IMG/VR virus record: IMGVR_UViG_3300031697_000015
Coordinates: 1 to 34,102 of that record
DNA length: 34,102 bases
Source of the DNA: a virus
Strand: one strand, 5' to 3'
The notes under the pieces are model-generated. The model had not been told where the DNA came from. It searched no databases and saw nothing but the letters and a program-made list of their open reading frames with translations. The translations under genes and the position numbers were made by a program. Positions 3,494-5,911 of this stretch are shown here, piece by piece. Position 1 is the stretch's first letter; every line of letters starts with the position of its first letter.

Positions 3494-3568
3494 GCCCCGG
3501 CTCATTGACCGCGTACAGGAGCGCGGGCCGTGATTCACTCGTGCGAATCAGTGAGCCGGATGGAGGGC
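3494..3568 (+). ncRNA. Three-way-junction structured RNA element
   Basis: Between the clamp-like gene and the next gene, CCGGCTCATT (from 3497) pairs with AGTGAGCCGG (to 3559), with one G-T. Two hairpins sit inside: CCGCG/CGCGG (3509-3513 with 3522-3526) and TGATTC/GAATCA (3531-3536 with 3545-3550). GCC/GGC (3494-3496, 3566-3568) can extend the base. No T-tract follows, so it is not a standard terminator. It may be an mRNA processing, stability or regulatory element. Confidence 0.5.
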
Positions 3569-5245: not shown

Positions 5246-5272
5246 AGTTAGACCAGCACACAGAAAGGAGCG

Positions 5273-5452
5273 ATGATGTGGAAAGACTACGAAGACCTCG
5301 AGACAAAAGAGTCAAATTTCGACAACCAGCTAACACTTCCTTTCGACGAACGATTCAGAAGAGCCGAACAGTTTTCGTTCGACTTTGGCGAAAATGAGTC
5401 ACCGGAAAAAAGTTTATGGTTTCGAAGACTCCTCAACCTAGGAAGGAGGTGA
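5273..5452 (+). CDS. Small acidic/aromatic protein with a rare SD (59 aa)
   Basis: A 59-residue frame from ATG 5273 (a second ATG follows at once). It is preceded by AAAGGAG at 5263-5269, the only clear Shine-Dalgarno I found in the window. The protein is rich in Asp, Glu, Phe and Arg (KDYEDLETKES; LPFDERFRRAEQF) and ends LLNLGRR. No family is recognised. QLTLPFDE resembles the beta-clamp-binding consensus QLxLF, so binding to a sliding clamp is possible but unproven. Its last codons form the 13-nt complement to the 16S rRNA tail described separately, and a terminator follows. Confidence 0.55.
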   Translation: MMWKDYEDLETKESNFDNQLTLPFDERFRRAEQFSFDFGENESPEKSLWFRRLLNLGRR

Positions 5453-5455
5453 TCC
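5443..5455 (+). promoter_or_regulatory. 13-nt perfect complement of the 16S rRNA 3' tail
   Basis: AAGGAGGTGATCC is the exact reverse complement of the conserved bacterial 16S 3' end (GGATCACCTCCTT). No start codon lies 4-12 nt downstream. The next structure is an intrinsic terminator at 5467-5498. It is therefore an extended SD-like site at the end of a transcript, not a translation start. Confidence 0.75.
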
Positions 5456-5466
5456 TTTATCTCGGT

Positions 5467-5498
5467 AAAGCCGGCACTCACATGAGTTGCCGGTTTTT
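5467..5498 (+). terminator. Intrinsic terminator
   Basis: CCGGCA (5471-5476) pairs with TGCCGG (5488-5493), with an inner CTCA/TGAG and a bulged T, followed by TTTTT. It closes the first early transcription unit. Confidence 0.75.
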
Positions 5499-5513
5499 CT
5501 GTTGTGCTATAAT
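5487..5513 (+). promoter_or_regulatory. Extended -10 promoter, leaderless
   Basis: TGCTATAAT at 5505-5513 is an extended -10 (TGnTATAAT). TTGCCG at 5487-5492 is a poor -35 with a 15-nt spacer, and it overlaps the terminator stem. The ATG at 5520 comes 6 nt after the -10, at the expected transcription start. Confidence 0.55.
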
Positions 5514-5519
5514 TTTTGG

Positions 5520-5696
5520 ATGTCAAGATGCACTGTATGTCAAAAACCAGCGATTAGTGAAAATGATCTCCGAGCCGAAGTAATGGTTTGCCAGGTTCAC
5601 TACAAAATTTTAAAAAAGGGAGAGCTTGAAAACGATAAGTATTTCAGGGTCCGTAGCCAGGTAGGAAAGTTATCCACTATACAAAATTTGTCGTAA
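5520..5696 (+). CDS. Small zinc-finger protein (58 aa), leaderless
   Basis: 58 residues. CTVC at residues 4-7 and CQVH at about 24-27 form a C2-x-C/H type zinc site, so this is a small treble-clef or ribbon-like protein. A basic C-terminal half (KILKKGELENDKYFRVRSQ) suggests nucleic-acid binding. The start was set at the ATG 6 nt after the extended -10; an upstream ATG at 5487 lies within the terminator hairpin and is rejected. The next promoter (5688) begins inside its last codons. The specific role is unknown. Confidence 0.6.
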   Translation: MSRCTVCQKPAISENDLRAEVMVCQVHYKILKKGELENDKYFRVRSQVGKLSTIQNLS

Positions 5697-5716: not shown

Positions 5717-5737
5717 GCTGAGATGAGTTCATCATAG

Positions 5738-5886
5738 TTTATTGACGGGGGAGAGATGGCGTGGGTTCGAGTCCCACCAGTGGCTGCATTAAGCGGGTTC
5801 TGTAGCTCAGTTGGTAGAGCGCTCCCAGGGGTCGGATGAGGTTCGAATCCTCTTCACCGATGGTAGGGGCCTTCCCTGTCAATAAA
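5738..5886 (+). ncRNA. Structured RNA with tRNA-like arms closed by a 16-bp stem
   Basis: TTTATTGAC (5738-5746) pairs perfectly with GTCAATAAA (5878-5886). GGGGGAG (5747-5753) continues with CTTCCCT (5871-5877), using two G-U pairs. Inside are a perfect T-arm hairpin (GTGGG, loop TTCGAGT, CCCAC), a canonical D-arm (GCTCAGTTGGTAGAGC, about 5814-5829), and a second T-arm-like hairpin (GAGG, TTCGAAT, CCTC, about 5838-5855). Neither set has a matching 7-bp acceptor stem or a proper anticodon arm, so these are not ordinary tRNA genes. It lies between a promoter and the primase-helicase gene. Confidence 0.65.
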
Positions 5887-5911
5887 TTATTTAAGTCTTG
5901 CCAAAACTAAT

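Follow-up and report, generated by a model that had tools for sequence, protein, structure and literature searches.

In the entrapment mechanism of rpsO, the gene for S15, an SD together with a pseudoknot holds the 30S subunit in a non-productive state. The STAB-SD of Bacillus is an SD without a coding role, located at 5' ends, which binds the 30S subunit and protects the downstream RNA. For S. aureus, non-canonical starts with extended SDs are reported in PMC13009471. Phage small RNAs are represented by sRNA1 and sRNA2 of PAK_P3, the latter located between two tRNAs, and in the passages of PMC4933390 on these RNAs the authors proposed that a PAK_P3 sRNA blocks the ribosome, via a stretch other than the one considered here. 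A literature search gave no recognised description of an element of the type reported below; in one of the searches, the matches listed were mostly a 16S primer of the same sequence.

The DNA analysed, hereafter the window, comprises 34,102 nt of the viral IMG/VR record IMGVR_UViG_3300031697_000015.

The start-less SD of the window

A perfect 13-nt complement of the 16S rRNA tail, pointed out in a sequence-only reading of this DNA, was recovered at 5443–5455 of the plus strand. The site and its surroundings contain the following features:

5264..5270, plus strand: SD AAAGGAG of the 59-codon ORF, read directly
5273..5452, plus strand: 59-codon ORF, with its stop codon inside the SD site
5443..5455, plus strand: AAGGAGGTGATCC, an extended SD without a start codon, complementary to the 16S 3' tail with 0 mismatches
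5446..5463, plus strand: weak local hairpin from folding, 5446–5452 paired with 5457–5463, covering part of the SD
5458..5463, plus strand: UAUCUC, the second conserved block of the element, with UUA-UCU at the start-codon place, 7 nt after GGAGG
5471..5498, plus strand: intrinsic terminator, a bulged stem and U run, read directly and in two folding runs
5508..5513, plus strand: TATAAT of the next gene, outside the element, read directly; ATG at 5520, leaderless-looking

A scan of the whole window found AAGGAGGTGATCC in a single copy, and matches with two or fewer mismatches numbered 4 versus 0.77 expected from shuffles. The duplex of AAGGAGGTGATCC with the 16S rRNA 3' tail GGAUCACCUCCUU has an energy of −24.6 kcal/mol, the tail being a general one that may not be that of the host. 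The 59-codon ORF, whose TGA at 5450–5452 lies within the site, has no match in PHROG or Pfam. An integration site matching the end of the 16S gene was considered and rejected: the flanks do not resemble the 16S end used for comparison, and no integrase was seen in the ORF lists of the window.

No ATG, GTG or TTG was found 4–14 nt 3' of GGAGG, in agreement with the earlier statement that a start codon at a usable distance is absent, and the site thus differs from an ordinary SD; the nearest downstream ATG, at 5482, lies within the terminator hairpin. The same codons are likewise absent 4–14 nt after the SD in the relative L003, and no reading frame belonging to the SD lies behind it in the window or in the close relative L002. 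That the site serves as SD of the next gene, with the hairpin looped out, was considered and rejected, as the distance would still be about 40–47 nt.

The intrinsic terminator reported behind the site is represented by a stem at 5471–5493 and a U run at 5494–5498, with z of −3.98 and −4.48 in two foldings; a simple terminator scan missed it because the stem has a bulge. Pairing of 5446–5452 with 5457–5463 involves part of the SD, so the site may not be fully free; a second folding run gave a different weak local fold.

In a survey of 33 hand-chosen ORFs, covering 25 nt before the start with the last 4 nt excluded and a threshold of −4.5 kcal/mol with the 16S tail, 2 ORFs reached the threshold. 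The window is accordingly SD-poor, in line with the claim that nearly all its genes lack an SD, although the 59-codon gene has an AAAGGAG (5264–5270) that is visible by eye and hidden by the cut-off. Of the leaderless-looking genes claimed, at least one was seen, with TATAAT at 5508–5513 and ATG at 5520. Within 5487–5520, the 3' arm of the terminator contains the −35-like region of this leaderless gene, which encodes a 58-aa Zn-ribbon-like protein, and terminator and promoter therefore overlap; L002 shares this layout. Further downstream, at 5736–5890 (plus strand), a structured RNA closed by a long stem and bearing tRNA-like arms was seen, near-identical in L002. It gave 30.8 bits against Rfam YrlA (Y RNA-like; E 8.9e-5, cut-off 69) and is a possible phage Y RNA. 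Like this window RNA, the published abundant sRNA2 of PAK_P3 (10345–10478 of L307) has a T-arm-like piece, and the two are perhaps the same kind of tRNA-like RNA.

L002 is the only close relative found (primase 98%); the 59-codon ORF, primase, 58-aa protein and downstream RNA gave no other relatives of the window. In Blast, both sides of the site align with L002, but the 240 nt around it do not. The 59-codon gene of L002 is similar in its N-terminal part and different at its C-terminus, and its terminator is unrelated to that of the window. Despite the changed codons, frame and terminator, the site is kept: at the same place L002 has TGA AAGGAGGTGATC TA TATCT, with the SD directly after the stop codon, 12 of the 13 nt of AAGGAGGTGATCC preserved, pairing with the 16S tail over 12 rather than 13 nt, and a gap between SD and UAUCU of n = 2 versus n = 3 in the window. 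The LGRR codons therefore do not explain the site, and the conservation independent of them, proposed earlier as a check, is found. Use of the site as an SD for an upstream frameshift was rejected, since in L002 it comes after the stop codon.

The sequence-only reading offered pausing of ribosomes where the 59-codon gene ends as an alternative, and the overlap of site and stop codon in the window agrees with it; however, in L002 and in many families described below the site comes after the stop codon, out of reach of a ribosome that is still decoding upstream, and tRNA clusters carrying the element contain no gene at which to pause. This explanation is scarcely credible.

Recurrence and structure of the element in phages

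The first scan of IMG/VR, for the 12-mer followed by T7 within 28–58 nt with no other condition, gave 37 stretches, 19 of which had a hairpin of −12 kcal/mol or lower before the U run (11 dissimilar families); the control, a reversed 12-mer with T7, gave 10 stretches, one with such a hairpin. In 6 of the 11 terminator families, chosen regardless of UAUCU, [U/C]AUCU was located 1–4 nt after GAUC, and owing to this recurrence the pattern AAGGAGGTGATCN{1,5}TATCT was used for a wider search. At least 120 stretches of IMG/VR contain it, and 118 loci were read; with a final C, the pattern was found in 114 stretches in all IMG/VR and 63 in 257 Gb of GTDB genomes, these being counts and not rates. The element is rare in chromosomes: it was found in 2 of 379 genomes of the phylum of a Zambryskibacteria match and in 4 of 398 of the phylum of an Oceanobacillus match, the centre genome included in both, with 0 and 1 in the respective controls. 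In a 273-kb Zambryskibacteria contig (L193, reverse-complement position 3558), the element and a terminator lie about 290 nt upstream of a gene resembling that of ribosomal protein bL21, a possible chromosomal case.

Pooling of all sets gave, among the matches listed, 262 sites, which fell into 173 dissimilar families. Of these, 48 lie within reading frames and the other 125 are non-coding; 87 of the non-coding families are of viral origin, a number that takes in the window, L002 and several named phages obtained with short queries. These 87 dissimilar examples, obtained from pattern scans, have the form AAGGAGGTGATC-(1–5 nt)-UAUCU; families were separated by a simple identity rule over 70 nt, and gene calls were made in this analysis. 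Since exact SD and UAUCU patterns were used to assemble the collection, variation at those positions is hidden. Both the window and L002 contain AAGGAGGUGAUC with UAUCU 1–5 nt downstream, and a gene end with a stop codon near the SD is present in the window. At L016, L017, L018, L028 and L031, AAGGAGGTGATC and a terminator stand behind cyanophage-like hsp20-type genes (named by eye), with UAUCU missing; this arrangement is perhaps a sister form of the element.

A stop codon starts 1–8 nt upstream of the element in 35 of the 87 families versus 23 of 749 random positions (counted for ORFs of at least 50 codons), a terminator is present within 110 nt in 33 of 87 versus 13 of 450, and a tRNA within 300 nt in 8 of 87 versus 6 of 450. 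Neighbouring genes vary and encode the major head protein, connector and scaffold, endolysin and PhoH. Head genes, which the element often adjoins, are strongly expressed as a rule. Stop codons, terminators and head genes are all consistent with a role in cis, whereby a 30S subunit parked behind the stop codon would shield the 3' end from exonucleases, tune the terminator or hold recycled subunits. However, the element occupies one place per record (short-query searches and the Pakpunavirus/Nankokuvirus comparison), that is, one copy per genome and not one per operon, and also occurs in tRNA clusters without a reading frame; a cis role, the leading alternative to action in trans, is conceivable, though rather unlikely.

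The element is present without annotation in PAK_P1, PAK_P3, PAK_P4, LUZ100, 9NA and Bas82. In LUZ100 it is located between tRNA-Asn and the annotated terminator region T15, which starts 30 nt downstream; in a passage of the paper belonging to this record, transcript ends are mapped by ONT-cappable-seq. In PaoP5 and PAK_P4 it lies in front of tRNA-Cys, the PAK_P4 copy following the RNA-seq ncRNA sRNA1 at a distance of 37 nt, and in KPP10 in front of tRNA-Asn. A head gene and one further ORF precede it in 9NA, AVIO78A and Bas82, and in AVIO78A the depositors' predicted terminator covers it. Annotated small RNAs of PAK_P3 and PAK_P4 lie beside the element without overlap. Behind the element of PAK_P3, at about 10088–10165 of L307, a tRNA-Asn-like sequence was seen, annotated in KPP10 and not in this PAK_P3 record.

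The unselected flanks of the 12-mer extend the 16S complement, with C at position 13 in 58 of 82 and A or U at −1 in 67 of 82, and no bias towards A was found at position 14; coding matches favour C at 13 too (29 of 48), which weakens the argument from this position. UCU is preceded by an NUA triplet whose first letter is free (ATA 28, TTA 20, CTA 19, GTA 19); it lies 5–9 nt downstream of GGAGG, most often 7, where a start codon would be expected, within the range allowed by the pattern. In its layout the unit resembles an initiation site in which NUA has taken over from the start codon. A match of UAUCU to the 16S 790 loop carries no weight, a 5-mer match in 1.5 kb being meaningless.

Cryptic initiation at such non-AUG starts (AUA, UUA, CUA, GUA), with synthesis of a short peptide, would accord with the spacing of NUA, with the GUG or AUG located exactly there in relatives of the small RNA CC2171, and with the extended SDs at non-canonical starts of S. 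aureus reported in PMC13009471. However, all four NUA triplets occur, and the L002 frame from AUC of UAUCU stops immediately (AUC UAA); in view of this stop and of the freely varying sequence of the downstream structure, no conserved peptide is seen, and cryptic initiation is improbable.

In many families, a compact H-type pseudoknot is located 3' of UAUCU, for example CCC TGCTC AGGG TTAC GAGCA (L130), CCC AGCCAC AGGG TTAC GTGGC (L198) and CGG AGCTGT CCG TTAA ACAG (L075). Counted strictly, with Watson–Crick pairs only and 60 dinucleotide shuffles, it was found in 23 of 86 viral non-coding families versus 3.5 (max 8) in shuffles and in 13 of 37 GTDB non-coding families versus 1.5; pseudoknot-like pairing occurs in 5 of 48 coding matches versus 2.1. 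The window and L002 contain no strict H-type pseudoknot and have a terminator instead. By the rules of this analysis, a pseudoknot or terminator is present in 49 of the 87 families; the remaining 38, with pseudoknots counted strictly, lack both.

With one sequence's structure projected onto a partner of 60–93% identity, 204 cells had both letters changed with pairing kept, 33 had one changed and 181 were broken, the last number including partners without the same geometry; with the structure slid by one position, the corresponding numbers were 30, 30 and 103. A 100-nt query compared between Pakpunavirus and Nankokuvirus matches over no more than 47 nt, namely the SD and pseudoknot, with compensatory changes in S2 (A-U / G.U / G-C and G-C / C-G). 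An anti-SD mimic on the other strand was rejected, since U runs and G.U pairs fit the given strand only; on the opposite strand, the G.U pair of PaoP5 would turn into an A-C clash.

Chance had also been named as an alternative. Taken together with a by-product of GRR-stop codons, it agrees with the 48 of the 173 dissimilar pattern matches that do lie within reading frames. It is contradicted by the site kept in L002 outside the codons, by the mere 0.77 matches with two or fewer mismatches expected in the window, and by the class statistics (terminator hairpins, pseudoknots, covariation, stop-codon context); recurrence of the start-less unit at gene ends of unrelated phages makes this explanation very unlikely. 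A protein-binding site, such as a CsrA-like GGA site with an incidental 16S match, would agree with the GGA adjoining a hairpin and with the element of L013, located behind a gene whose product looks CsrA-like. Conservation of the whole 13–14 nt tail complement across phages of very different hosts is explained by no single such site, and this reading is decidedly improbable.

Proposed capture of the 30S subunit

Recurrence of the start-less unit at gene ends with downstream structure suggests that the partner shared by all these sites is the 16S tail. The best reading of the element is an RNA that would dock and hold the 30S subunit, either in cis or, more probably, as a small RNA, and its presence in many unrelated phages suggests a widespread RNA device for catching ribosomes. 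Judged from sequence comparison, the site of the window may well be a terminator-type member of this recurrent phage element capturing the small ribosomal subunit, an assessment on which we are evenly balanced. Weighing against it are the lack of a pseudoknot in the window and L002, the 12-nt pairing of L002, the families with neither structure, the matches in reading frames, the annotated small RNAs of PAK_P3 and PAK_P4 lying beside the element, and the possible self-pairing of the site.

In the proposed mechanism, the RNA would dock on the 30S subunit by 12–13 base pairs with the whole free 16S 3' tail; initiator tRNA would fail to lock on at NUA-UCU because there is no start codon, and the 3' pseudoknot or terminator would hinder melting of the docked RNA, so that the 30S subunit would stay in a dead-end pre-initiation state. 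The single copy, changing neighbours and location at transcript 3' ends or near tRNAs suggest a small RNA acting in trans, which may be cut from strong late transcripts. It is possible, and is put forward tentatively, that unrelated tailed phages repeatedly reached one undescribed trans RNA freezing the 30S subunit and composed of a 13-bp SD, NUA-UCU and a pseudoknot or terminator.

The ribosome decoy suggested in the sequence-only reading thus appears a serious idea. It is supported in part, by the conservation in L002 and the recurrent start-less unit, but the sparing of SD-less phage mRNAs is not supported: PAK_P3, which has the element, has SD-led genes (AGGAGG before ATG was seen), so such an escape fits the window and cannot be general for the class.

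Should the 30S-docking reading hold, an unannotated RNA directed against the most conserved region of the bacterial ribosome would be common to phages of Proteobacteria and Bacillota, and probably to others. Orphan complements of the anti-SD with perfect pairing would be accounted for, structural studies would gain a natural 30S trap, and the control of initiation by phages could be tested in laboratory phages (BASEL phage Bas82 on E. coli K-12, LUZ100 and PAK_P3).

Comparison with known systems

At its cut-offs, Rfam detected only tRNAs in the window and 14 class loci, and the element of PaoP5 has no Rfam match at E ≤ 1. At a lax threshold, the family nearest to the window is CC2171 (RF01867), with 24.2 bits (521 nt) and 12.8 bits (81 nt) against a gathering cut-off of 75, which leaves the window outside this family. 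CC2171 of Caulobacter, a stand-alone sRNA family in Rfam, starts with GAAAGGAGGUGAUCCAGUGUCUC, sharing with the phage element both the extended SD and the UCUC behind it; in the position of NUA it has GUG, or AUG in a single weaker relative, and it is chromosomal in the alphaproteobacteria seen. CC2171-type sites open frames of 18–20 codons at GUG or AUG, and the nearest known RNA therefore looks like a start-codon version of the element. In L323 and L324, CC2171-type frames VSHC... and MSHG... with an SD spacing of 7 were seen; CC2171 may be a small ORF and not a non-coding RNA.

Gram-positive extended-SD initiation sites, as presented in PMC13009471, resemble the element in their long SD and close spacing and differ in having a start codon and a reading frame, both absent from the element. 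Identity with the published sRNA1 or sRNA2 of PAK_P3 was rejected, as their coordinates do not overlap the element. The STAB-SD is similar in its SD lacking a coding role and different in its 5'-end position and absence of a pseudoknot; in the window, the site does not appear to lie at a 5' end upstream of a protected mRNA, and only the terminator follows directly. Entrapment in rpsO resembles the element in combining an SD with a pseudoknot, by which the element too would hold the 30S subunit; unlike the element, it needs S15 and a real start codon and autoregulates one gene.
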